From Tubulanus polymorphus (taxonomy: Eukaryota; Nemertea; Palaeonemertea; Tubulaniformes; Tubulanidae), in contig NC_134033.1 in the NCBI RefSeq assembly GCF_964204645.1, forward strand, positions 15,564,155-15,628,154: a stretch of DNA of 64,000 nucleotides, given 5' to 3'. The translations under genes were made by a program, and so were the position numbers. Position 1 is the first letter of the stretch. Every line of letters starts with the position of its first letter. The notes under the pieces were generated by a model. It searched no databases. It was not told the DNA's origin and was given only the letters and a program-made list of their open reading frames with translations. Below are positions 14,861 through 61,918 of this stretch, in pieces.

Positions 14861-17351
14861 GCTTCTTGTGAGTGTCTTCTTCAGACCATTATTTCCGAGA
14901 TGTAGTTTGGCTGAAATAAAGTGAAGCAAAACATTTCAGACAGATTTATCATAATTTACCGGTACATGTCATTTCAAATTACAAGCCACCGTGTTTTTCA
15001 CAAAGTAAAATTCATTGATGTCAATTGCTGATTTAAACCCTAATAATTAACTGCAGTAGTAGGACTAGTTCATCACTGTTTAAGACTAATGAAGATAAAA
15101 GTTTAAAGATAAAAGATCAGCCATGTGGACCGGTAAATAGATTTTGATGATAGTCACTTATCAAATGATATTCATATGAGGCCCGAAATTTCTGCATACC
15201 AGTAATTTCATGTATATCATGTATGTCAACTTACCTTTAAAGATTGCTGGGTTCAGTTCTGGCCTCTTCTGTGTCCTGTGCCAGTTTGTAGATTTGTCGT
15301 GCCAGGTTGTAGATTTTGGACTAGTTGATCTCAAGCAGGGCTTTTTCTTATAGTTGAAATTTAGCTGCAATCATTAAAAGATGGATGTCCTGTTATCACA
15401 AAACATTTCATTTAGAATTAATCGAAATAATCCATGAAAAATCAACTTACATTTCAAGTTTGCTGGGTTCAGTATCGGTTAGAATGTTCTCGGTTTATGC
15501 GTCTGACTTGGATTGTTCTGTGGGCTGAGCTAATCTGTAGATTTTCTGATTAGTAGTTGATCTCAAGCTGGGATTTTTCTTATTGCTGAAATTTAGCTGC
15601 AATGATTAAAAGAAGATATCCTGTAATGACAAAATATTTCATTTAGAATCAATCATAATAATTCCATGGCTATCAAGTTACCTTTTATGATTGCTGGGTT
15701 CATTATCGGCAATTATCTTATTAGTTCGTTGGTTGATAAGTTCAATTCTAGTTGGCCTCATCGGTGTGCTGTTCCAGTTGGTCGATTTTGGACGAGTAGT
15801 TGATCTCAAGCTGGGTTTTTTCTTTTTGAAATTTAGCTGCAATGATTAAAAGAAGATATCCTGTTATCTCGCAAAATTTCATTTAGAATTAATCATAATA
15901 ATTTCCATAAAAATCTGGGTTCAGTATCGGTGACGATCTTTTAGATAGGTTAGATATCAAGCTGGGCCTTTCCAGATAAAGTTTAGCTGAAATGAATAAC
16001 AGAACGATATTCTGTAATTGCAGAATCCTTTCTGCATCATACATTGTAATTTACATTAGTATCAACTTAACTTTCAAGATTGCAGAGTTCAGCAGCGACT
16101 AGGATTTTCTTGACGGTGGTTGAATCTTCAGAATCACTTAATTGTCTTCTTGTCTTCTTCGACGAAGCTACAAATGAATAAAACAACATTCTGTAGTCAC
16201 ACATTACTTCATTACTCCTAATTTACATGTATATCAACTTAACTTTCAAGATTGCCTAGTTCAGTATTCTTTTTTCGGCATCTTCTGTAGTCGCCTTGTT
16301 GCATCTTCGTCTTCAACTTCTTTGGAGTCCTGAAATGAAAAAAAAGAGAAGAGCGATGAAAACCTGGTACGGAACAAAACTAATGTCCGAAAGCTTTTCA
16401 GCTCTCCGTCGCCGGTCACATGCCGAGAACACCAGACAATGAGCCAGCCAGGAATATACTGCCCTCTACACGCCCTCACACAGAACGCGAAAACCAGAAT
16501 GACAACGCCTCACATTCCCCATCTAACTGCAGGATGTACTGGGCGACGTCAGTAACTGACACACCTGTAAAATTGCACGAAACACAAATAGCGCAGTACA
16601 ACCAGCTTGACCGGGTTGAGATTCAGGATCTCAACTAGCACTCAAAAGCGTGACAAGAGACTTCATCCACTGACCGAGGTTGTCACAAGGACACAATGAA
16701 ACTAGCACTCACAAGCCGACAAGAGACTTCATCCACTGACCGGGGTTGTCACAAGGACACAATGAAAACTAGCAATCAAACTAGAAATCAAAGAGCGTGA
16801 CAGTAGAATCATCCCTCAGCCGACTCAGAATACCAGAAACAAAGAGCGTGACAGTAGAATCATCCCTCATCCGGGCGGTCACAAGGACACAATGAATGCT
16901 AGTAGCGTGACAATCCAGTATAACCGCTCCATTTGTATCCCGCGCAATCTCGCAGATATGCCCGTCATTGACATCACTCAGCACACACTTTGTAGATAGG
17001 TGGGGGCGGTGAGGCCTCGTCATCCTGGTTTTCGTGTTCCGTATGAGGGCGTGTAGAAGGCAGCCATTTCCTGTCCGACTCTTTGTCTGACATCCTCGAC
17101 ATGTGACCGGCGAAGGAGAGCCGACGCTTTCGGACATTAGTTTTGTTCCAGCTAACGTTGAAATTCGACAGAGAAATCGGCCCTGAAAAACATAACGGGT
17201 TAGAAGCTGAAAAATAGAACGGATTAACGAACACGGAACAGTACAGGACAGCACGGAGACGAACGGTAACACATAAAACATAAAGACGTCGTTCCTCAGG
17301 AAGCAGGAACAGGAGCGCAGCGAAGATCGCCAGGAGAATCCACGGAAGCAT
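14860..17351 (-). CDS. Putative small secreted-protein gene with duplicated exons
   Basis: Not recognised. A TATA-like box (17396-17401) precedes an ATG at 17351 whose first residues form a strong signal peptide (MLPWILLAIFAALLFLLPEE). Downstream on the minus strand six short exon-like units share acceptors and 3' ends (TACTGAACCCAGCAATCTTG... then GTTAAGT or GTAAGT): about 16329-16244, 16167-16072, 15986-15905, 15836-15685, 15596-15455 and 15364-15235, then a distinct terminal unit starting at 14910. In one consistent phase they begin T-K-L/F or T-S-S. Some stay open (LKTKMQQGDYRRCRKKNTEL; KKTRRQLSDSEDSTTVKKIL), others hit early stops. The donor of the signal-peptide exon is not resolved, and the second unit in another frame ends MPKKEY-stop, so the exact CDS is uncertain. 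Confidence 0.4.
16370..17165. mobile_element. Two inverted remnants of a non-LTR retrotransposon 3' end
   Basis: The minus strand at about 17165-16900 encodes, across two frames, VRKRRLSFAGHMSRMSDKES and LSDVNDGHICEIARD, a pattern typical of the C-terminal end of non-LTR reverse transcriptases; frameshifts show it is dead. A second copy about three-quarters similar lies on the plus strand at about 16370-16560 (shared: ACTAATGTCCGAAAGC, CTACACGCCCTCA). Between them are short tandem duplications (GACAAGAGACTTCATCC; AGCGTGACAGTAGAATC), probably 3' UTR of the element. Confidence 0.6.
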
Positions 17352-17401: not shown

Positions 17402-19834
17402 CACCGTGGTCAGCCGGTGACGTATTCCAATTGTGATTAATAGCGCGTGCGAATGATATCAACAACCCTGAAAAACCGCAATTGTGTCTCTATTGTTGAA
17501 TGGATTTACATTGAGAGCTTATAGAAGGTTCTACTGCCAGGTTGAATACGCGCCAGTAGTCAGCTGAACAATATCGTGGAACTTTGATATAAGGCCATAG
17601 AATAGATTACTTGATCCTCAAAAGCTCCCCTCCGAATTTAAAGCCGCCGCCTGTTTTTTTTTTCTTAACTGTTAGAATAATCTATAAACTATACCGACAA
17701 GTAGCTTTTCAGTTCAAAATTCACACCAACACAGGTCTTCATATCATATAGCTTTTGGGATATTTCATATCATACATACGGTACCGGTATGAAATATAAC
17801 ACTGTCTCCCAGACAATTTTACAACTTCTGACGAGAATCACGTATTTGCTGCTCTATGAAAAATCCCCAAAAGCACCAAGGTTTATCAGCTACTGTAATG
17901 TCGTTACTAAAACTATGCACTACTAAAACGAAGATCGAGAAGGCATGCACACCAGGTTATTTTTGTTAACATCGCATGTATATTCAAAACAATGGATTAT
18001 GATGGCAGTTAAAGACGAGTTGGATGAATACACGTTGAACTAAACTCTTCCAGGGGTCACATTTTAAGCTTGGCTGAGAAACTTGATCGTATGGACGCTA
18101 GCGAGAGGCATCAATGTATAGATTACGATTCATACTGTAACACCCGCCTTAGGCTAAAAAAGATTGATACTTAGTTTCTCAGCTCTGCTAAGCTTCAATG
18201 CTGACCCGGCCGGCCGCCTATCTACTGATTATAAATTTTATCCTATTTTACAAAAATGACCTGGCCGCTGCGGAGAAACAAGGTATCATTTTTGTTTAGC
18301 CTTACAATTACATATTTTACCAGGTGACATGTGGATAGCTTCCTTACATCCTTACATTACAGGAAAGTCCATATTAAGAATTTCGCTTCTTGTTACTGGT
18401 TTCATTCATTCACTATCAATTGTGACAAGTCCCTGCGAGTGATCCCTTGATGTGGAATAGAGGATGAATAGGCAGGCCATTTTATTCTCAGTGCCCACGT
18501 CATAAAACTCTGTCACCAGTATTTAAACCATCAATTGGGGGGTTGGAGATAAAGAACCACTGAAAGAAACTCAGTTACTGTCAAGAATACGAATACAAAT
18601 AAACTGCACTAAAGATACAAGACAAACAATTAAATCATTGATTTTCTGTTTAATTAACAAAAAAATTCCTATAATATATAACAAGCTTTATGGTTTATCG
18701 ATACAAAATACTATTTTTTTCGCAATATTCTTTTATCCTTTTAAACATGCTTCCCATGAGATTCTACCACAAACGGGAAAGGGATCTCGTTTATATACAC
18801 TGCAATAACAAACCTAGTATAACTAATTAAGCTAAAAAGAATTGATAACTAGTTTCTCCTTTCTGCTTAGGTTAAAAGTTGACCCGGCTGGCCGCCTATC
18901 TATCCTGTACATTTCTTTATTTCAAACCATGATTAATTTTACCATAACAGACCCAGCAGCTGTAGAAATAAACTGATTACAAATTCTATTATATTTTACA
19001 AAATGACCCGGCCGCTACGGAGAAACAAGGTATCATTTTTGTTTAGCCTAATAAACCTAGTATAACTCTGTGGTAACCATAATTAGGATTTGAATATTTG
19101 AGACGGATTTTAACATCGACGAATGTTTGAAACACTCACAAATACAAGGGTCAATCAAAATACAAAGTCGACAGTAGCAACAAGTTTTACAAAATCACAA
19201 ATAATCATCGTCACAAATCTAAAATTGATTAAATGATCTACAATGAATGAATATATCTATATAAACATTACTATCAAATGCAACTTATAAATTTCATGGT
19301 TCCTTATATAATAGAATATTGTGGATCAATTTCCACAGTTGTCCGTTTAACTGTTTGAGTCAAGATTAGTTAATTATATCCAATTCATGTAATAGTTTCA
19401 GGCTCAAATTTGAACTGCGGAACAGGGTTCAGATGATTGCGAATTGAAGCCAAATGCAAGTCGAAACCTCTCACTCAGATCTACTGGGCTCAGTTGCAAT
19501 TTATGTCCAAAAGTGGTCTTTAATCTTGAAACCGGTCTTAAGTTGTAAGATTGGCTACCGAACAAAAATGACTGGTTTTACATTAGATTGGTTATCTAAC
19601 ACAAATAAGCTTAACTAGTCACAAGTTGTTAGATTGACTGGCATAGAACCAAAATCAGCTTAGACTGGTCTTAAAAGTTGTTTGATTGTTTTTTTGAACA
19701 CAAATGAGCTTAGACTGCTCTGAAGTTGTCAGATTGGTTATAGAACCAAAATGAGCTTAGACTGGACTTAAATTTAAGCCATGAGTGTGCTAAACCACTA
19801 AACCACATGCCAGTCCTGAACCAATGTACACGTT
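17402..19834. other. Intergenic with MITE copies
   Basis: No coding exon seen. Holds two copies of a TIR element (18150-18302 and 18829-19049), a GTTCCACAG MITE (19323-19430) and reversed 47-bp family units (about 19475-19790). The last few hundred bases before 19835 may be the 3' UTR of the Kelch gene. Confidence 0.5.
18150..19049. mobile_element. Pair of MITEs with GGCTAAAAA...TTTCTC inverted ends
   Basis: Copies at 18150-18302 and 18829-19049. Each starts GCTAAAAAAGATTGATAC-like, ends GGTATCATTTTTGTTTAGCC and shares GACCCGGCCGGCCGCCTATC plus CGGAGAAACAAGG. Unrelated DNA lies between the copies. No coding capacity. Confidence 0.65.
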
Positions 19835-22800
19835 TTAGTGATTGGAAGTTGTGTGGGACGTCAGTAGCCGTTTCGGAATATTACTGACGCAACAATGGAT
19901 GCGTTTCATCATCGTCGAGTCAGCGCGGTTACGAATAGACGGTTTGTGCTTCCAACGCGACGTACCGTCGGCGGCCGAATTATCCAAATAGTAATAGCCG
20001 GTAACACCGGGGGAGCCACTCTCTCCGCTGATCATATACAATGTGTTATTATACTTCACTACACCTAGAAATATAAAGTAAAACATGTTCGACAAACTTC
20101 ATTCAATGTCGGCGATCTATGATTCGACATGTTTGCACTGATGTCTCATTCTTATACAACTTGCACCTCGCCACATTGGGGGGAGGGGTTTTCGACAAAC
20201 TCAGACAAAAACGAAATAATCTACCAATTGCCTAATGGTATTTTAGAATTGTTTTCTCTGAATTATTTCATACCAGCCCCATTTTAACCCTTTCAGTGCT
20301 GACTAATCAATACCCTATAGTGCTGGAGTTAATTTGAAAATTTTGAAAAATTCAACCCTAGTGTGTTGAATAATGGGAATACCGCTATAGTGCATCTACA
20401 CCGCAGCGCGGTGCATCGTTAGTTACTAGTATTTCACTTCACAGTCTTTCAATAGAGATATAAACTAATTACTAATTGAAAATCAATACACCGCAGTGAG
20501 GTGTACTAGCAAAATCCATCACCGATTCATACACCGCACTGCGGTGTATACGCACTGAAAGGGTTAATGAGCAGTTGATGTTATAACAGTTTATTCTGAC
20601 AGTTTCGAATTAATCAGTGATTACAACATAAGCGGCTACTAGTTGCTTTGGCTTTATCATAAGCAATTGGCCCCTTATTTTTAACATGTTATTTTTGTTC
20701 TCTGATGATGAAGTTTAGTCAAAACTGTCAGAATAAATTGTTAAATCATTAACTGTGGGTTTTGCTCATTGACTCTGAAATACCGAGATTACTGAGATTA
20801 ATATCGGTATTTCAGAGTCCCAATGTGTCTGAATAAGGTGTGGTCTTCTGGACCCAGTTCCACAGTTGTGAGTTAGAGTTAAATCTGAGCTAAAGTTGGT
20901 TCATTTTCAGTGATTTAACCCAAAGTTAAATCTTAACTCGGGACTGTGGAACTGGACCCTGCTGATGATTGAACATTATTTATACCGATGACAATGACAT
21001 AATAACTGTTTGTAATCAACCAACTCTAAATGCAGGCGTAAAACCAACAGTGGAGATAATTGCTCAGCGTTAAGGATTTCTTACCCGTGGCACCCATGGG
21101 TTGGGGTAACTCTGGACCGAAGCTCCACGATTCATCAGCAGGGTCGAATACTTCGATTTCCTTCAAATAATCCGAACCGTTTTCATTCCAAGATTTCTTG
21201 CCTCCTGAAAAAAATTGATCGAACTTGCGACATTTTGCTCCAAATCAACGGAGTTTCAAGCAATATTTTTAAAGCATTTTCTGTTTAAAAGGAATTTTCA
21301 AGAAATTCAAGGAGTCGTAGGGACCATGTAGTCACACTAAATGTTGGTTCAGCTGCCGGGATTTTATCCTTACCGCAGATATATATCTTATCCTGAAACA
21401 CGACGGCCGCCGTCAAAATACGACCACTTTTCATCGACGGCAACTTCGTCCAAACATCGAATGCGGGGTCATAGCTGGAAATAAAAAATACCGATTCATT
21501 CTGAAATCGCGGTTTACGAATTGAAATACCCTGAACTCTGTCTACCTAATACCTCTAATTGTAGCAGTTTTGAAAAGAAGTAATTTGATGACCACAAAAG
21601 CAGTTCAAGAGATATCAATATTTTTGGGAGGTGATTATTCAACAAATAGAGTAGAATCTACTCTCAAATATTCGTAGTCATCTCAAGTATTCAACCGTCA
21701 CAATGAAGTCCAACTCACCAGTAAGCGGTATTCATAACTTGCGGTCCGATTTCAAAGCTGTTCGTGTTTTTCGCGACTCCTCCGAATATGTAGAGTTTTC
21801 CTTTGAAGCTGACTCCGGCCATACACGCGAGGCCGACGGGCAGACAGGCGACTCTCGACCACGTGTCGCTCATTGGGTCGTATTTCTCGACGTAATTGTG
21901 AATGGTCGTTACATTGATGCCTCCGATCGCATACATAAACCTTTAAACAACGTAAATATAAAGCTTTAAACAGCGCACGTAATCAGAAAGTTCACATCAA
22001 TCTCGAAAAACAAGCAGCATGATATGACTGAGTAGTGGTCTGAAGCCATTAGCTTTAGAACTGAAATTTACTTAGTCTGGTCTCTAAGCCATTAGAATGG
22101 TTATGGAACCAAAATGATTCTAAACTGGTCTAAAGTTGTTAGATTCCTCATAGAACCAAAATGGGCTTAGACTGGACTTAAGTTGTTAGATTGGCTATGG
22201 AACCAAAATGAGTCTAAACTGGTCTAAAGTTGTTAGATTGGCTACAGAACCAAAATAGGCTTAAACTGGTCGTAAGTTGTTAGATTGGTTATAGAACTAA
22301 AATGATCTTAGACAGGTCTTAAGGTGTTAGATTGGTTATAGAACCAAAATAGGCTTAGACTGGTTTTGCTCGATTATCGAACTAACATAGAGTTTTAAGA
22401 CTGGTCTTAAGTTTTTTGATAGCATACAGATCTTAAATCTATGCCTTAAAAACTTTGATCTGTCCGTTATTTCTTATGTGATTTCCCTCCGTCCTTAGAC
22501 GAGATGTAAGATGTAATTTCGTTACCCCCCCCCCCACTGAGGCAGAACCGACAGACATACCGATCTACGACTACGAGATTGAAGAATGATCGTGGATCTT
22601 TCATGCGTTTCTTCTTCGTGATCGTGCCGGTCATCGAATTGAACGCGTAAACGTGTCGCGAGTCGGTGTTCGAAGGCGCCACCTGGTGCGCGGAGTCGTT
22701 ACTACGACACGTTCGTCCGCCGGCGATATACACCTCGTTATTCATCAGAGCGCAACCTGAAAAAAAAAACACGAAACAATCTGTGAAAACACGAAACGAA

Positions 22801-28400: not shown

Positions 28401-31400
28401 CTACAAACACTGACGACACGCTGTGATCGTAGTAAATATTACTATTGACGTCATAACTGTATCTGATACTACCACTATGCACCTGCGGCAGCAGCAGCAG
28501 CAGTGGCACCAGATAGTAGTCGTGGTTACGTCAGGTCTGCGCTGTATTACATTATAACCCCGAAGCTCCGTGTGCTTGTCGCGCGCGGGTACTTTTTTAT
28601 TGACGTCACCGACGCGATGCGTTTTGTCGTCACGTTTCTATTTCGAGTGGAGATGAATTTCCGATCGAAATTTTTTTACCCGGAAATAAATTAATTTTTT
28701 TACCGAATGATGGTGATGATGATGATGACGGGTATAGTAGGCGACTAGTGAATAGTTGTTTACCGAGCGAGCGATCAGTGAGGGGTGGGGAGAGAGGGTG
28801 TGTCATGAAACGGTTATTTATTCGCGATATGTCCCTATTAGGCAACAACCGATGCGCGTGGATGGCGTATAATTTACCGGTTCTGTTCTGAGTATTCATT
28901 CGCGCGGTCGTCGGTCGTAAAAGGTTGAAGAATTAAGCGACGATTGTTTCTTGAAAATTCTCCTTATTTATTACGGTTGATTCGGTTGAGTTCTACCAGA
29001 CACAACATCAATACCGCACGCAGTAAGAGACAGACACAACACTGTAGAACCTCGTTACAACAAACTTCAGGAGACCTGAATAATCTGTTCGTTATAACTG
29101 ATAGTTCTTTATACAATGGAACCTAGGTACAACAAACTTCAGGAGACCTGAAAAATCTGTTCGTTTTAACTGATAGTTCTATATACAGCGGAACCTCGTT
29201 ACAACGAACTTCAGGAGACCTGAAAATCTGTTTGTTATAACTGTATGGTTCGTTATAGGCCTATTCAGTACTTTTATGAAATTATCAAAATTGTCCTATT
29301 TGGGATGAAAAATTCTAGGTTTGTAAAAACGGATAAATCGTTATATCCAAGGGCGTTGTAACGAGGTTCTGCTGTAATTCACCAATTAGAATTTCGAAGA
29401 TTAAATTTCGATCTTAAGATTGAATTTTAAAAATTTTCAATTTCTCTTCAAGTAATTTCCAATGTGAAATTATATTTCTCAGTATTAGATAACGATATTA
29501 AATGTTTCCAATTTTGTCTCGACGTCGGGGAATTCAATCTCAGTCGAAAACAATTGTTTGGTTTTTAGAATGCCATTTTCGAATATAATTTCATGAATTC
29601 CGGGTGCTGGGAAATTACCGACTATCGTTACTCGTGATAAACGTTTGTTTTTACTTCCCTGATATCAGTTTGTATTCGATATTTCAGCGTTGTACGCTTA
29701 CCAGAAGTTCTACAAGTTAGAGTCCGATCACTGGAAGGTGAGTTCCTCAGCGTTGCGGCTACATAGGCTACCTGGTAATCGGGGAATTTTCTTTTCTTTT
29801 AAAAGTCAGGGAATTGTCTTTTCTTTAAAAATAAGTCGGGAATTGTCTTTTTTTCCAAGTCGGGGAATTTTCTAGAAAAAAAGCTACAAATCAGTGAAAA
29901 GTCAGTGGAATTTATTGAGATCCCCGGTAAAGTCAGAGAATAGTCTAGGAATTTTGTAGAATAGTTATAAATCTAGGAAAAGTCTAGAGAATTTAATTTT
30001 TTTTTTAAAGAGGGTCTCTAAGTTTCTAAAACAGATGATCAGTTGAATCTAGAAAGATTGTGCCTAGAATCGGACAGTTTTTTTCTCGATGTCTTAAGTA
30101 TTTGCCTGTGTAAATTGGATTGGATTCGTTGTCAGGGAATACAACTTACGTAAATACATGTCAGGGGGCAGTAAAATAAAATGTCAAACAATTTCTCAGT
30201 GATGTTGAATTAATTTTGTTTTTTTGTTTTTCATTTTAGGATATTAATTTTCTTTACGGAGTTGGTTTGGTTTACTATCACTACAACGCGTTTCCCTGGT
30301 AAGTCGCAACAGTTTCTTTCATCGTCTAGATTTCCATCTCAGTCTCAGCATTTCGCGACCACAAATAGAACGGAATAATTCGGAAAATTCATGTTAGTCG
30401 TTGTTTTCAGTCGGACATTTTCAAAAAATAGATATATTAGAATAGATTTTAATTACACAAGAAATACTGATTTGATTTACATAGAAATATGAAAGATTTA
30501 ATTGAGGGTCTTATTGTTGATTACTGATTAATTTGAACAGAAATATGAAAGATGTTACTGAGGGTCTTACTGTTGATTACTGATTAATTTGAACATTTTC
30601 TTTCACATTTCAATGAAATGTTACTGAAAAAACTCAATTTGTTACTGATATCACTTTATTGAGGTTGACAGCTTCAACTATTGGAGGCTTAAAGGGTATT
30701 CACAATTAATTACAAAACCAGAAAATTAAAGCATATTTTAAAAAAAAACATGACAGATGTTATTTACATTATTACGCTGTATCTACAATATTTATATACT
30801 ATCGAAGGGTTCTATAAACACTAAGACGTATTTAGATAAATTTAGCCGGTTCTAAAATTGGATCTATAAATACACCCGAAGTACGTGAAATGGTTTTTAA
30901 ATTCGAGTAGTTTTCATCGAATTCAGTTCATGAGTGTACTCTAGGAGGTGGCTCCCTCTACCGGTTGATATTGTAACTATCGATCAGCAGTAGTGTGTGT
31001 AGAGCCGGTGTTTGTGTATGTGTGTGCTGAGGTGAGGAGTGAGAGAGAGAGAGAGAGAGAGGGGAGAAGAGAGAGAAGGTATTGTGTTTGTGTTCAGTGT
31101 TTATTTGGCACGGTGCCTACGCCGGGTGCACGTGTGTATTAGTAAGGGCAGGAGACGAGAGAGAAAGTGTTTTGGAAACGGTTTCGGGGGGGATATACTA
31201 GTTATTTACGAGCGCGAACAGATCGACAGCCGGACGCCGCGATATTTGTCACTTACCAGAGAGGAATAGCTCGGGAATAGCGCGTTGTATTATTGATTAC
31301 TCTCGAACACACACAGTGTATACAGTGTATATTACAGTGTAGAGACTACTCTGCACACATGAACTCATAGACTTACCACCGGTGTAGAAATTAATTAATT

Positions 31401-34400: not shown

Positions 34401-37400
34401 ATATTTCAGGGTATGTTGAGATATTTTGGGGTGGGGGGGTTGTACCCCTGCACCCTCCTCTCGGATGCACGCCCCTGTGTTCGTCAGCTGGTCCGGTCAG
34501 CCAGCCTGTCAGCCTGTCAGCCAGTATACTCTGATACACTGTTTCAGATTTCATATTAATCAAGGCCACTGTGTGTAGTGGATATCGTCTGCTCGCAGCT
34601 GGTGGTAGTTTCCTACGTACATGCCTCGTGTCACGTCACTTCTAGGAATGTACGTCTGATACCTCAGCCGTTATCGCCCGCTGTTGCCGTTAGTTACGGC
34701 GTATATCATTCCGCTGATGAGAACGCACTGGATATCACCCGGTAATTCCCGTCTCTGGAAGCTCGCCGCGATGGGGCGAGTTAATCGAAATTCGCAGAAC
34801 GATATTTTAGGGAAGGGGGTCGATATAAGTCATAGGCACGGGGGGGTGAGGGGTGCAGTCGCTCGAAGGTTCCCCAGTCTCGCTATGTCAACTATCAAAT
34901 ATGCATAGAGATTGTTTATTCAATTTATTCATCATAAAACCTGTACATACAAAGATCGTCAATTTTTTTTTCTTTTAGATTTTTTTTATACAGATTAATT
35001 CGATTTCTATCAAAAATAATATACATAATAATTGATAAGAATTGACATAATAGAAAGCCTATACATCATCTTTATCTGGCAACACGCCACATGAAGAAAG
35101 TCGATGAACAAAGGACGGAATTTTGCCAGTGCGGCTGAAATACTCAAGATAAACAACATTAAGAGAAAGAATGCAAAACGCGTCTTTTTGCAACTATCCA
35201 TTGGTAACTCAACCCGACTTTTGAGCATATGTCGCTAGTGGAATTTAGGAAATGGTTTTTAATGTGGGTTTTAAGTCGAATAAAAGATATTCTATAAACG
35301 ATATAATGAATGGAGGCGCTCCTTTTTCTTCTCGGAAACTTTAAAAGAAAGATTTCTTTAAGATCTACGGTTAACCGCAATCTGTAGTTTATTTATTTCG
35401 CGGATCTCAGATAATGTTCCGCTCTCAGCTGTATAGGTGAGAATTGCCGGAATCTGTTGTTGAGTCGGCATAAAGAATCTGAGAGGAAGCGACTCTTGAA
35501 GTCGTTGAATGACGACGACTCCTGTAGTCAGTAATTACGTGAATGCATTGATAATAATACTGACTGATTCAGTGATTCTCGTTATTATTTGAATCATCTC
35601 GTGTTTACGAGACGTTCAATCGTAAGGTGACGAATTCAATCCAGGTCATGGTACGTCATGAATGGATACCTCATTCTCTCTTCTCCCTCCCTCTTCTCCG
35701 TCCTCTCTTTCTCGTCTCTTCCTCTATATCCCTCTCCTCCTCTGTCCCTTCTTCCTCCCTCCCGCTCTCTATCCCTCTTCTCTCCGCTTTCCCTCTTCTC
35801 CCTCTCCTTTTCATCTTTCCCCCTTTCTCTTTTCTCTCCCTCTTCTCCCTCTCCCTTTCTCCTATCCCTCTTTTCTCTCTCTTCTCTCCCCTCCCTTTCT
35901 TTCTTCTCACCCTCTCCTCTCACTCTCCTCTCTCTCCATTCTGCTCTGTCTCTCTGAGTCTCTATTATGATTATACGAGCCGCTCCTTGGCCTCAGGCAG
36001 CAGATCTCTCACAAACACTCCCTCACTTGCCAGTGCTCGATTGATTCTAATACTGCAGGCTATTGATGAATCATCAAACCCCGATGCTGGATTTATTTCT
36101 ACATCTTGTGTTAAATCATATTCAATCATTCATTGTTCATTTCATTCCGGAACTTAAACCAAAAAATGTGGATCATTCAGAAAAGAAGGGAAGGGAGAAG
36201 AAACAGTTGTACGGTTATGCAGTTGCACAGTTCTTTAATTATGCAGTAGTACGGTTGTACAGTTGCCCAGTTGTTTCGCTATGCAGTAGTACAGTTGCAA
36301 AGTGCACAGTTGTGCATTCGTACAGTTGTGCATTCGTACAGTTGTGCAGTTGTACAATTGTGCAGTAGCACAGTGGTACAGTTACTGCATTTGTACAATT
36401 GTGCAGTAGTACAGTTGTTTGGTTATGCATTAGTACAGTTGCACGGTTGTACAGTTGCAAAGGTGCACAGTTTACAATTGTGCTGTAGTACAGTTGTACA
36501 GTTGCACAGTTGTAGTTGTGCAGTTGCACAGTTGTGCATTTACCATAGAATGATGACAGAGATAATTTTGGGATTTTCTCATAGTTGAAACTGGTCGTTG
36601 TAGTGTTTATTGTATCTGTTCGAGATGAATATCATCATCATTTTCATCATCATCATCATCATTTTCATCATGCGAGTCTCTATAATCATACATACGCATT
36701 AAATCCACATAAAGAAATGAAAACTATTGTGTGATTTGGTTGCTATAGTAACCGCAGTACGCTGCAGTGCTGGCTGCTCTCTGGTATCGCGTGTCAGTCA
36801 GATTGTCACTCTCTCTGTTAGACTGAATCGACCTTCATCTTCGTCATTGGCCCAGTAACCTTTACGAATCATATTTTAGCGTATAATTCGGGGTGATTTG
36901 CACTGATTTGTCTTAAGAAAAATGTTTTGCTGTTTTTGCTGTTAGCTCTCACAACCTTCCTTAAAAGGTGTAAGATTTTCGACTTATGACCGGTATTAGG
37001 ATTTGAGACTACTTTTAGACTACTTTTAGACTACTTAGGACTTCTTTCATGGTTGCACTTGCTGGGACAATGGGGCCGGTTTGAATTATGGCTTAGCTTA
37101 AGCTCATTTTGGTTCTATTTTTAACCAACCTTTACAACTTAAGACCAGTCTAAGCTCATTTTGGTTCTATAGCCAATCTAACAACTTAAGACCAGTCTAT
37201 GCTCATTTTGGTTCTATAACCAATCTAACAACTTAACACCAGTCTAAGCTCATTTTAGTTCTATAACCAATCTAACAGCTTAAGACCCGCGTTTAAGCTG
37301 ATTTTGGTTCTATAACCAATCTTAACAAAGACCAGTCTGAAGATTTAAGGCCACTTTTATCTAATCCCTGTTTTCGTACGTTTGATATTTTTCAGGGCTA

Positions 37401-40400
37401 TAAAAGCGTTTCAGCACGTGTTGTATCAGGACCCGGGTTTCCCGTGCGCCAACGAGATTCACAACCGGCTGGGATTGATCTTCAAACTCAACGGAAACTT
37501 CGAAAGCTCGTTGAAAGTAAGTTCTCTCTCTCCCCCTCTCTCTCTCCCCCCTCTCCCTCTCTTTCTCTTTCCCCCTCTCTCTCTCCTCCCTCCCTCCCTC
37601 ACTCTCTCACTCTCGATTGTGAAACCTTATTCCAGGTCGAAACTAATCTTTCGTTATCAGACATCAAATTATCTGGAGATCTATTTTTAGCATTCGTGGT
37701 CTAGATTTGATTATTCAGTGAACTTGAATGATATCATTTTACAATTAATGCAAATTTTTTTTTTCAGCATTTCAGACAGGCTTTGAACGATTCGAGTCCG
37801 TGTTCGCTGACGAAGGGCGAAGGTACGTTTCAAACAATGATTTACTGGAACCTCGTTGCTACAAACTTCTGGGGCCGGTTGCATAGTCATGACTTAGACT
37901 TAAGACCAGTCTAAGACCAACTTAGTTCTATGGCCAATCTAACAACTTAAGGCCAGTCTAAGACCAGCTTAGTTCTATGACCAATATAACAACTTAAGGC
38001 CAGTCTAAGACCAGCTTAGTTCTATGACCAATATAACAACTTAAGGCCAGTCTAAGACCAGCTTAGTTCTATAGCCAATCTAACAACTTAAGACCAGTCT
38101 AAGACCAACTTAGTTCTATGACCAATCTAACAACTTAAGGCCAGTCTAAGACCAGCTTAGTTCTATAGCCAATCTAACAACTTAAGACCAGTCTAAGACC
38201 AACTTAGTTCTAGGACCAATCTAACAACTTAAGGCCAGTCTAAGACCAGCTTAGTTCTATAGCCAATCTAACAACTTAAGGCCAGTCTAAGACCAGCTTA
38301 GTTCTATGACCAATATAACAACTTAAGGCCAGTCTAAGACCAGCTTAGTTCTATGACCAATCTAACAACTTAAGGCCAGTCTAAGACCAGCTTAGTTCTA
38401 TGACCAATATAACAACTTAAGGCCAGTCTAAGACCAGCTTAGTTCTATGACCAATATAACAACTTAAGGCCAGTCTAAGACCAGCTTAGTTCTATAGCCA
38501 ATCTAACAACTTAAGACCAGTCTAAGACCAACTTAGTTCTATAGCCAATCTAACAACTTAAGGCCAGTCTAAGACCAGCTTAGTTCTATAGCCAATCTAA
38601 CAACTTAAGGCCAGTCTAAGACCAGCTTAGTTCTATGACCAATCTAACAACTTAAGGCCAGTCTAAGACCAGCTTAGTTCTATGACCAATATAACAACTT
38701 AAGGCCAGTCTAAGACCAGCTAAGTTCTATGACCAATATAACAACTTAAGGCCAGTCTAAGACCAGCTTAGTTCTATAGCCAATCTAACAACTTAAGACC
38801 AGTCTAAGACCAACTTAGTTCTATAGCCAATCTAACAACTTAAGGCCAGTCTAAGACCAGCTTAGTTCTATAGCCAATCTAACAACTTAAGGCCAGTCTA
38901 AGACCAGCTTAGTTCTATGACCAATATAACAACTTAAGGCCAGTCTAAGACCAGCTTAGTTCTATAGCCAATCTAACAACTTAAGACCAGTCTAAGACCA
39001 ACTTAGTTCTATAGCCAATCTAACAACTTAAGGCCAGTCTAAGACCAGCTTAGTTCTATAGCCAATCTAACAACTTAAGGCCAGTCTAAGACCAGCTTAG
39101 TTCTATAGCCAATCTAACAACTTAAGGCCAGTCTAAGACCAGCTTAGTTCTATAGCCAATCTAACAACTTAAGGCCAGTCTAAGACCAGCTTAGTTCTAT
39201 AGCCAATCTAACAACTTAAGGCCAGTCTAAGACCAGCTTAGTTCTATGACCAATATAACAACTTAAGGCCAGTCTAAGACCAGCTTAGTTCTATAGCCAA
39301 TCTAACAACTTAAGACCAGTCTAAGACCAACTTAGTTCTATAGCCAATCTAACAACTTAAGGCCAGTCTAAGACCAGCTTAGTTCTATAGCCAATCTAAC
39401 AACTTAAGGCCAGTCTAAGACCAGCTTAGTTCTATAGCCAATCTAACAACTTAAGGCCAGTCTAAGACCAGCTTAGTTCTATAGCCAATCTAACAACTTA
39501 AGGCCAGTCTAAGACCAGCTTAGTTCTATAGCCAATCTAACAACTTAAGGCCAGTCTAAGACCAGCTTAGTTCTATGACCAATATAACAACTTAAGACAA
39601 GTCTTAAGATTCAAGACCACGTTTTGGACTTAAGCCATGACTGTTCAACTGGCCCCTGGGGACCTAAAAATCTGGGGCCGGTTCCTCACAAGTCGGTTTA
39701 GAGTTAACCAGTGGATTGTTGACATAGTGACAATTGAAAGTTCATTGTTACTGCAGATTTTATCCGCCGGTTATCTTCAACTAACTTTTGAGCAACCCGT
39801 TCCAGCTGTTCGTTATAACCGATAGTTACAGCGGAACTTCTAAACCTCCCCCTCCAAACTCCCCCTCCCTGTACGCTAAACCTCCCCCTCAGCACTTCAG
39901 TTCTCTCTATCATCTGTTGTCACGTACGCCAGTTGTTAGTGTGTCGAGGTCATTGACTAGTGGCAGCACTGTCTACTCAACTAATACCAACACACCTTAG
40001 TTCATAAGTTCAACTGTAGATGGCAGCACACTTCGACTTCTGCCACAATAGTCACAGACGATGAGCAGAAGACTGAGTTCCTGCAGTTGAACAGGGTCCC
40101 TACGACTCCTTGATTCCTTGTAAACTCCTTCGAAACCAAAAATGTTTTTCAAACTCCTTGAATACCCTTGAATTTGAATAAAATGCCCAAAAGTCCTAGA
40201 AAACTCCTTGAAATCAAGAATGACTGATTTGTAGGGACCCTGGAGCAACTCCCATCTTTTAGATTAAACTTATTAATATTACAATTGAGTTTGAGAGTAA
40301 ATTTCATAATTATTCTTTCGATTTAGCTGGTTTTTCTTAAACATGGATACTAACCGGAGACCCTTCGATGAATGTATAATTATTTTGTGTGTTTTTCAGT

Positions 40401-58197: not shown

Positions 58198-59013
58198 TCA
58201 AATAATTTCAGATATTTGATTGTTTTAGTTTGTGGTGAACTGTTTCTTGTGAAGGACTGTATTTTATATTGGAATGAAGAGAAGGGATTTGAATTTGACT
58301 GCAGTGAACTGATATAAATCTCAGTGTAGTGTTAACGAATAAAAAAAACCCACAGTATCTGTAGAAAGTTAATTTCCTTAAAGTTTCAAGGTTAAAACTA
58401 AACCTCATCTTCGTTGTACTTTTTGTTCATCTGAAGATGAGATTTTGTTTTAACCTCGTAACTGTAAGGAAATAAACTGTTTCTACGGGTACTGCGGGTT
58501 TTCCATATGGATTTGAATATTTTTAAGCGAAGTTTCAGGTTTGGGAAAGCAACTCTAAACCCTTTTTGTTCGCCTAAGTTAATTCTCGTATTCACCGCCA
58601 ATGATATTCATGGGGGCAGCACGAGCCGGTCAACAGGTGATAGCTCGTTATTTATACTGTGGCACGCGAGTAACAAATTTAGTTTACGTATTCGCCGTCC
58701 AAGCCATAGTGGTAGCACGTGACGGTCAATATTTGACAAAGCTCAATATTCTAACTGCGGCATGCGAGTAAATTCAAACTTTATTCAGTTCGGAATAGTT
58801 CTATGGTTAAAACATTTACAACGCTTGCACCCGATATGAAATTTACACAAATGGCTATCTGAAAAAAAGACAGGGAAGGACATAAAACACAAAGTTACAT
58901 TCGGGTTGATTTAATTGCGTTCGTAGTTCGCGTGTTCCCCGTCTATATGTATATTGGTGGCAGCACCTGACGGTACATACTCGACTCCCGCAACAAGGAA
59001 GTCAGCCATTTAG

Positions 59014-61820
59014 GTCTGTCTGCAGAGTTTCCAGAACCTGTCATGTCAGGGCCCAAGACCTGACATGACAGGTGGGACCTCAGGTGACAGGTCGATTTGC
59101 TAAAATGAAAATCGTTATGACTGAACCGATGATAGGCGATTAGAAGATATGATAGGCGCGGATTTAAAACAAATGATAGCCGATAAGAAACAAAAAGAAC
59201 ATATCTTAGTGCTTTCTGAATATATTATTCAAAAACAAAAAACAAACTATGATGTGTTATGAATTCATTTAAGAATTTATGTTTGCCTTGTAAAGATGCA
59301 ATGATTGTGAATTATTTGAGAACATTGAAAGAAATTTTTACAATTAATTTATTTTTTTGTAACATGAAACATGAAAATATCAAGATTAGGCAATGATACT
59401 AGTAGTGCCTTATGTAATCATAATCAGCATTAATAACAATCATTATACTCACTATGATTAGGCCCTATATTATTATATATTATTATTAATTACTCGCAAT
59501 ATAATTAATTCACCAAGTGCACATACAATTTAAAAACATTTCAGTCCAAGCTTATAAGTTGACATAGATAAATTAGACATAACACTGATTAATTAGTGAG
59601 ACCTCACACGGCAACGCGCGCCATTTTGCAGAGCTTCTCGAGACCTGTGGTGACAGGTCTGCATTAAAACTGATGAAATGAAGGAAAACATTAATTTTTA
59701 TAGTCTCTTTATAGTAAAGAGTATAATATAAATTGCTAACCATGGATAGAATTAATCTAAAGTTACTATAAAACAATAATTATGAAGCGAGACCTGACAC
59801 GGCAGCTCGCGCCATTTTGCAGAGCTTCTCGGGACCTGTGGTGACAGGTCTGCACTAAAACTGATGAAATTGAAAAAACTTTACTTTTTATAACCTTTAT
59901 ATAGTAAAGAGTATAATATAAATTGCTAACCATGGATAGAGTTAATCTTAAGTTACTATAAAACAATAATTATGAAGCGAGACCTCACACGGCAGCTCGC
60001 GCCATTTTGCAGAGCTTCTCGGGACCTGTGGTGACAGGTCTGCTTGAAAACTGATGAAATGGAAAAAACTTTACTTTTTATGGTCTCTTTATAGTAAAGA
60101 GTATAATATAAATTGCTAACCATGGATAGAGTTAATCTTAAGTTACTATAAAACAATAATTATGAAGCGAGACCTCACACGGCAGCTCGCGCCATTTTGC
60201 AGAGCTTCTCGAGACCTGTGGTGACAGGTCTGCATTAAAACTGATGAAATGAAGGAAAACATTAATTTTTATAGTCTCTTTATAGTAAAGAGTATAATAT
60301 AAATTGCTAACCATGGATAGAATTAATCTAAAGTTACTATAAAACAATAATTATGAAGCGAGACCTGACACGGCAGCTCGCGCCATTTTGCAGAGCTTCT
60401 CGGGACCTGTGGTGACAGGTCTGCACTAAAACTGATGAAATTGAAAAAACTTTACTTTTTATAACCTTTATATAGTAAAGAGTATAATATAAATTGCTAA
60501 CCATAGATAGAGTTAATCTTATGTTACTATAAAACAATAATTTTGAAGCGAGACCTCACACGGAAGCTCGCGCCATTTTGCAGAGCTTCTCGAGACCTGT
60601 GGTGACAGGTCTGCATTAAAACTGATGAAATGAAGGAAAACATTAATTTTTATAGTCTCTTTATAGTAAAGAGTATAATATAAATTGCTAACCATGGATA
60701 GAATTAATCTAAAGTTACTATAAAACAATAATTATGAAGCGAGACCTGACACGGCAGCTCGCGCCATTTTGCAGAGCTTCTCGAGACCTGTGGTGACAGG
60801 TCTGCACTAAAACTGATGAAATTGAAAAAATTTTACTTTTTATAACCTTTATATAGTAAAGAGTATAATATAAATTGCTAACCATGGATAGAGTTAATCT
60901 TAAGTTACTATAAAACAATAATTATGAAGCGAGACCTCACACGGCAGCTCGCGCCATTTTGCAGAGCTTTTCGGGACCTGTGGTGACAGGTCTGCATTAA
61001 AACTGATGAAATGAAGGAAAACATTAATTCTTATGGTCTCTTTATAGCAAAGAGTATAATATCAATTGCTAATCATGGATAGAATTAATCTAAAGTTACT
61101 ATAAAACAGAAATTATGAAGCGAGACCTCACACGGCAGCTCGCGCCATTTTACAGAGCTTCTCGGGACCTGTGGTGACAGGTCTGCATTAAAACTGATAT
61201 AAGAAAAAAACTTCATGCTTTAAATTGATGAGTTGATTTAAAATCAGTCTCAATAAAATCAGTCTCTATATTGCATTCGGCTCTTTTACATGTACATCAT
61301 AAAGACAATGAATATAAATAGTGAGACTTCAGGACTTCAGGACAGTGAGGAGTGTTGCCGAACTGTGATAGTGAGCAGATAATTTTCAGTGTCTTATTGC
61401 GGAAACGAAATATCAAGACCTCGATTCATCTAGCGAAAATATTCTCTTATAATGTGCTCTTATTTCTACATTAATTAATTCATCTATGCCTGAAACTTAT
61501 TTTTTACCTTTAATACAGAAATAAGTCATAGTTTACACATAAATATTTTCTTCTTATAAATCAACCTTTCAAATGAATTATTTGTCAGAACATTTTCCTT
61601 ATCGTTATTGTTGAATCATTTTCGATATTAACGACGGGTCAGAATATTCATTCAACTCAAAATGTTCTTCCATTCGTCTAACACATGCCTAGATATTTCG
61701 CCGTTTCGTCAAATATTGTCATGAGTTTGGGTTTTTTCGGGACCTGACATGACAGGTCAGACCTGTCATGTCAGGTCTTAAGACCTGACATGACAGGTTC
61801 TGGAAACTCTGCAGACAGAC
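59014..61820. mobile_element. 2.8-kb element with perfect 37-bp inverted ends and a satellite core
   Basis: Ends at 59014-59050 and 61784-61820 are exact inverted copies (GTCTGTCTGCAGAGTTTCCA then GAACCTGTCATGTCAGG), and similarity continues imperfectly for about 30 bp more, including further CCTGACATGACAGG palindromes. Between them: about 500 bp unique DNA, the 190-bp array, about 540 bp unique DNA. There is no coding capacity. The architecture (inverted ends plus tandem core) resembles pearl/Helentron-related elements of molluscs, but assignment is inference. No clean target duplication; AAGTCAGC..CATTT occurs in both flanks with a 7-9 nt offset. Confidence 0.8.
59572..61197. repeat. 190-bp satellite array, about 8.5 units
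   Basis: The landmark GCGCCATTTTGCAGAG recurs nine times (one copy with TTTTAC) every 190-191 bp from about 59618 to 61142. Two unit types differ in the middle (GAAGGAAAACATTAATTTTT versus GAAATTGAAAAAACTTTACT) and alternate to give a ~381-bp higher-order repeat; the third unit is a hybrid. Each unit has the palindrome GACCTGTGGTGACAGGTC. Open frames on the minus strand are just the repeat read through. Confidence 0.95.
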
Positions 61821-61918
61821 ATCAATCAAGTCAGCGCCATTTCCTGACAGTAAATATTATTATTGTGTAACTGCGACTGAAGTTTTTGCCACCACCCACC
61901 GTCACCCCTCGCAGAGAG

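Follow-up and report, generated by a model that had tools for sequence, protein, structure and literature searches.

A gene-less transposable element family of Tubulanus polymorphus with a rapidly changing central array of 190-bp units containing an end-like segment

The window, a stretch of 64,000 nucleotides of Tubulanus polymorphus (contig NC_134033.1), contains at 59014-61820 a sequence for which many near relatives were found in the genome (268 Mb, 77 contigs). Thirty-five of these were extracted with their flanks and their ends were aligned, and 36 two-ended copies in total were compared. The alignment places each boundary 7 bp further out than originally predicted: the complete element extends from 59007 to 61827. 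Its features, together with the flanking duplications, are the following.

58999-59006, no strand assigned: left target-site duplication AAGTCAGC, with the same 8 bp at 61828-61835
59007-61827, forward strand: complete element, 5' CATTTAGGTCTGTCTGCAG ... CTGCAGACAGACATCAATC 3', its ends set by aligning 36 genome copies with different flanks
59007-59093, forward strand: 5' terminal repeat (inverted repeat I1), with the outer 7 bp CATTTAG, then GTCTGTCTGCAGAGTTTCCAG and palindromes of type ACCTGwCATGwCAGGT
59094-59597, forward strand: 5' arm, non-coding and A+T-rich, about 88-100% identical with other copies, with subfamily differences
59598-61213, forward strand: core array of about 8.4 tandem 190/191-bp units, types ABAABABA, from Tandem Repeats Finder and unit classification
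59627-59660, forward strand: end-like 34-bp segment of the first unit, TGCAGAG...CAGGTCT, from local alignment to the ends
59818, 60008, 60198, 60389, 60579, 60770, 60960 and 61151, forward strand: starts of the further end-like segments, the last of which reads TACAGAG
61214-61740, forward strand: 3' arm, non-coding, from module mapping; found directly after 1-3 units in older relatives
61741-61827, reverse strand: 3' terminal repeat (inverted repeat I1 plus a tandem row at 61741-61798), with three alternating palindromes and the outer 7 bp ATCAATC
61828-61835, no strand assigned: right target-site duplication AAGTCAGC, with the same 8 bp at 58999-59006

The terminal inverted repeats (59008-59093 and 61741-61826; 86-nt arms, 86% complementary) measure about 87 bp, and are composed of a unique outer part and of alternating 16-18-bp palindromes of type GACCTGwCATGwCAGGTC. 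Dispersed copies on different flanks have these ends in common: besides the 36 two-ended copies, a genome-wide pattern search, allowing up to 3 mismatches, returned a total of 107 ends. The family amounts to about 45-55 copies, all gene-less, and no coding function was seen in the 5' and 3' arms. Ends, arms and core are shared by all copies of the young group, while the terminus of older relatives is GATTTAG, not CATTTAG. The motif GCCATTT, initially taken as flank, is resolved by these boundaries into the last 2 bp of the target-site duplication (GC) and the element's own terminus (CATTT). Since a perfect 8-bp duplication is present, in this register, in 30 of the 36 two-ended copies, and a 9-bp duplication in none of them, the element is assigned to the cut-and-paste transposons. 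As a whole, the best explanation, which we consider probable, is a non-autonomous DNA transposon with terminal inverted repeats, which duplicates 8 bp of its target and has a tandem array at its centre.

Insertion sites are far from random in sequence. The motif CGGAAGT/ACTTCCG occurs in 9 of the 36 sites (evaluated as 48-bp sites), compared with 1 of 2540 48-mers taken from the window as background. A very strong preference is observed, on either strand, for the target ACCCGG^AAGTNNNN, which is like an ETS-type promoter motif; it is found at 58999-59006 in the window, at L002, L008, L011, L013, L018, L026 and at other copies. The genome contains the sequence ACCCGGAAGT 1477 times, and six of the 36 insertions lie on it in exact register, with the cut after CCCGG and the duplication starting with AAGT. 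The preferred target is also present at the single-ended copies L034 and L074, and is mostly absent at the older relatives. A literature search found no report of transposon insertion at CCGGAAGT.

Three transposase domain families were searched in the genome, and none of the matches could be tied to the element's ends. The 20 genomic matches to PF21787 (P-type, TNP-like RNaseH) include none near the listed ends, and the same holds for matches to PF18758 (KDZ domain). One hAT match is located between two ends (C4:18585610); it is part of a different, nested hAT, whose terminus is of type CAGGGCTGCCAACC and which is also present on C5 without the element's ends. No autonomous partner was found when the copies with a single end or of unusual length (L040-L070) were inspected: the search yielded longer non-coding relatives, the nested hAT (L075/L076) with its own termini and a retroelement fragment (L046). 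Elements of the hAT superfamily produce 8-bp duplications, as does the present family, and are characterized by CAGRG-type termini and nTnnnnAn duplications; neither of the latter is seen here, the ends being CATTTAG/GATTGAT, with a T at position 2 in 7 of 31 duplications and an A at position 7 in 3 of 31.

Other sequences were encountered during these searches. Two near-identical loci (L066, L067 and L070; C12:10958484-10969800 and C12:9345300-9347712) have an element-like 3' end adjoining open frames, which lie beyond the ends and, judged by eye from their translations, appear Polinton/Maverick-like (B-type DNA polymerase, packaging ATPase). One long element copy (L042, C4:18580088-18582500) contains at L042:1733-2371 a perfect (TG)n-type microsatellite of about 640 bp. 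The window itself hosts a 46-47-bp minisatellite family (TAGAACCAAAATGAGCTTAGACTGGTCTTAA...) at 19583-19772, 22092-22364, 37099-37328 and 37898-39609, in both orientations and once with 36 homogeneous copies, as well as a 56-bp unit, found in a 19-copy array and in a 2-copy array 29 kb apart (1008-2074 and 30483-30595).

The units of the core, all in one orientation, form a single central array. They contain GCCATTTTGCAGAG...GACCTGTGGTGACAGG, with TTTTACAGAG in the last one. For the same array Tandem Repeats Finder also scored a period of 381 bp; the 381-bp higher-order repeat of the original prediction is thus present as a period, but the dimer is imperfect (ABAABABA) and is not general in the family. 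The repeat order varies by copy: the period is 2 in L015 and L020, 4 in L006 and 10 in L005, and some others have no clear order.

According to the original prediction, the units would be degenerate termini of the element. Aligned locally with the 5' end, the unit at best pairs TGCAGAGTTTC-CAGAACCTGTCATGTCAGG with TGCAGAGCTTCTCGGGACCTGTGGTGACAGG, 24 of 31 columns being identical; with the 3' end, the alignment extends to 27 identical columns of 34. Local scores of unit against end range from 31 to 38, shuffled maxima from 30 to 34, and the observed score was reached by none of 2000 dinucleotide shuffles and by none of 404 genomic 190-mers. As both unit and end contain the palindrome, the upstream part was also tested alone. 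When anchored at the palindrome, the part outside it was equalled by 39 of 100000 random genomic 19-mers, while the end without the palindrome gave a non-significant result in free local alignment (321/2000 shuffles). Because shuffles, genomic 190-mers and anchored 19-mers rarely or never equal it, the similarity is real and collinear, and it is limited to 31-34 of the 190 bp. An end-like segment, in direct order, is therefore found in each unit beyond chance, as predicted, and the alignment does better than its shuffled controls. The prediction does not hold for the remaining part of the unit, about 156 bp (about 82%), which shows no resemblance to the end, nor for GCCATTT, which falls outside the optimal alignment.

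Similarity to the end does not vary with age. Intact units of older relatives score 27-31 against the 5' end (one rearranged unit scores 21) and the young group has a mean of 29.9; as old and young units score alike, there is no visible sign of a terminus decaying into a unit, old units being no more end-like than young ones. Within the unit, non-consensus positions amount to 3.9% in the end-like segment versus 6.6% in the rest. Other parts of the unit are conserved more strongly, the segment having rank 41 of 190 windows, so that selection on it, as a putative binding site, is only weakly suggested.

The older, longer relatives (L056, L060-L063 and L068) contain about 1-3 units on their 3' side, their interiors being otherwise unrelated to the core. 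As these units adjoin the 3' arm, the unit has the appearance of a segment that was subterminal, on the 3' side, in the ancestral element and was tandemly amplified in the younger group. A common core was to be expected in all copies with the same ends; it is indeed shared by the 36 two-ended copies, but not by these relatives, which have the same ends and largely unrelated interiors. Since they also have only 1-3 units, the core is an add-on, expanded within the family. A high-copy repeat of about 1.35 kb (L061:1329-2674), with internal inverted repeats and more than 1300 candidate places in the genome, is located inside older relatives; its 66-bp tandem unit is also found in the window, at 16633-16780.

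Unit numbers, which are array lengths as assembled and may include assembly errors, differ widely between copies: 29 copies have from 4 to 31 conserved blocks, and others from 1 to 3. L005 and L006 show no differences in the compared arm segments, yet have 31 and 16 units; L018 and L033, also without differences in these segments, have 11 and 14. With arms 0.12-0.25% apart, the copies L014, L023 and L026 have 19, 6 and 5 units, and the window copy (L001) has 9, against 15 in L004 and 7 in L019. The 190-bp array is one that lengthens and shortens very fast. Units of one copy differ on average by 6.7%, while the median arm difference between copies is 2.9%, and a nearest neighbour from the same copy was found for only 140 of 354 units; hence a diversified array existed before the copies spread, travelled along with the element and afterwards changed its length in blocks.

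Genome-wide, two conserved stretches of the unit gave 557 and 520 matches, 512 and 490 of which lie inside the loci fetched around element ends. At least one pair of the remaining matches (C2:13072030) is located downstream of the 5' end of a further relative, L059. The largest array, of 31 units, is contained within an element, and no long independent array was found in the assembly. Because at least 92% of the unit matches fall inside fetched element copies, no free satellite of the 190-bp unit is seen in the assembled sequence covered by the search; the direct route from transposon end to satellite, which had been proposed as already taken, finds no counterpart here.

Several explanations of the array were considered. 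The direct conversion of a transposon end to satellite, with the core made of tandem degenerate copies of the terminus and its flank, is favoured by the one stretch of 34 bp per unit that matches both ends in order, but the core is not made of end copies, because about 156 bp of the unit are unlike the terminal repeat; GCCATTT is in part target duplication, the units of old relatives are no closer to the end, the unit of older copies is an internal 3' subterminal segment, and no free satellite is seen in the assembly, all of which makes this origin improbable. Alternatively, end and unit may independently hold sites for the same protein, either transposase or host factor, neither being a duplicate of the other. 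The strongest common part is an 18-bp palindrome of type GACCTG....CAGGTC, repeated several times in each terminal repeat, and units old and young resemble the end to the same degree, as this would entail; on the other hand TGCAGAG and TTC, upstream of the palindrome, match as well, with spacing within 1 bp, to an extent rare among the anchored genomic 19-mers, and we regard independent origin as possible, although unlikely.

The capture of a satellite that already existed in the genome, the origin suggested for miDNA4 of Xenopus, would account for the A+T-rich part of the unit, whose source was not detected in the terminal repeat, and for the different interiors of other relatives with the same ends. 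It is made very improbable by the distribution of the unit, since at most 30-45 of the 520-557 matches lie outside the fetched loci, at least the pair at C2:13072030 lying itself downstream of a further relative's 5' end, and by the oldest relatives, which have 1-3 units and no long arrays. The element has inverted terminal repeats and, in 30 of 36 copies, the 8-bp duplication, while Helitron-type elements are not known to make such a duplication. Because of these duplications a Helitron- or Helentron-type element with central tandem repeats is refuted. In its favour is the general architecture (ends and a central tandem array), which is like that of oyster CgHINE elements (PMC9659126). A functional reading, in which the internal array acts as an amplifier, offering one site per unit to the transposase, changing length by excision repair at nearly every mobilisation and so tuning mobility, with the same transposase aiming insertion at the preferred ETS-like target, is also given a low probability.

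Most likely, by analogy with Galileo and Tetris, the units provide extra putative transposase-binding sites, multiplied through unequal recombination or slippage. Close to the 3' end, a subterminal segment with terminal-repeat-like sequence would have been tandemly duplicated, its end-like part being most likely a secondary transposase-binding site. The array would then have been carried to new sites by transposition of the element, and its length would have been increased or reduced, by one to several units at a time, through unequal exchange, slippage or post-excision repair. The mobilising transposase would be encoded elsewhere, or lost. Within this assembly, the array has not been released from the element as a free satellite.

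Comparable elements are known. Tandem-repeat MITEs of bivalves (DTE of Donax trunculus, cited in PMC12628747) reportedly have inverted termini and a central tandem array, and are likened here by description only. The closest parallels are found with Tetris, a foldback transposon of Drosophila virilis with TIR-220 repeats (PMC4079207). Both are non-autonomous, with target-site duplications of 8-10 bp in Tetris and of 8 bp here, and tandem units of about 220 and 190 bp, respectively; the stretch common to terminal domain and repeat is 37 bp, about 80% alike, in Tetris, and 31-34 bp, 77-79% alike, here; in both, the number of units varies between near-identical copies, neither has been linked to a transposase, and for Tetris, too, the end-like segment has been proposed as a transposase-binding site (PMC4079207). 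In Tetris, however, an array is contained inside each long inverted repeat, whereas here a single central array lies between short terminal repeats of about 87 bp, and Tetris has also been amplified into kb-size satDNA arrays (PMC4079207), in contrast to the present family.

Galileo is a P-superfamily element with long, repetitive terminal inverted repeats, in which extra transposase sites within tandem repeats are bound by the THAP domain in vitro (PMC3688188). The units described here would similarly hold extra sites, as predicted from their resemblance to the terminal one; in Galileo, however, the repeats lie within the inverted repeats and copies with P-type transposase exist (PMC3688188), whereas no P-type transposase is linked to the present element. 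The satellite-carrying miDNA4, a Tc1/mariner MITE of Xenopus tropicalis, also has from one to many tandem monomers within an element with terminal inverted repeats, in variable copy number (PMC12628747, PMC9659126). It differs in being of the Tc1/mariner type, the present element having an 8-bp duplication, and an end-like segment, found here in the unit, is unmentioned for its monomer in the available portions of these descriptions.

Since Tetris, miDNA4 and the bivalve elements are precedents, the family illustrates well, as a new case, a route already known, and not a new one; it is caught before the release of the array. Satellites born from repeats inside DNA transposons have been documented in a few lineages (Tetris, miDNA4), and a repeat unit holding a piece that resembles the element's end is here met for the second time. 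The sharp insertion preference provides a handle for finding the transposase. The family displays the step that precedes release, and, because dozens of copies in one assembly combine nearly identical arms and exact duplications with arrays of 1-31 units, it becomes possible to measure how fast, and in what way, an array grows within a mobile element.
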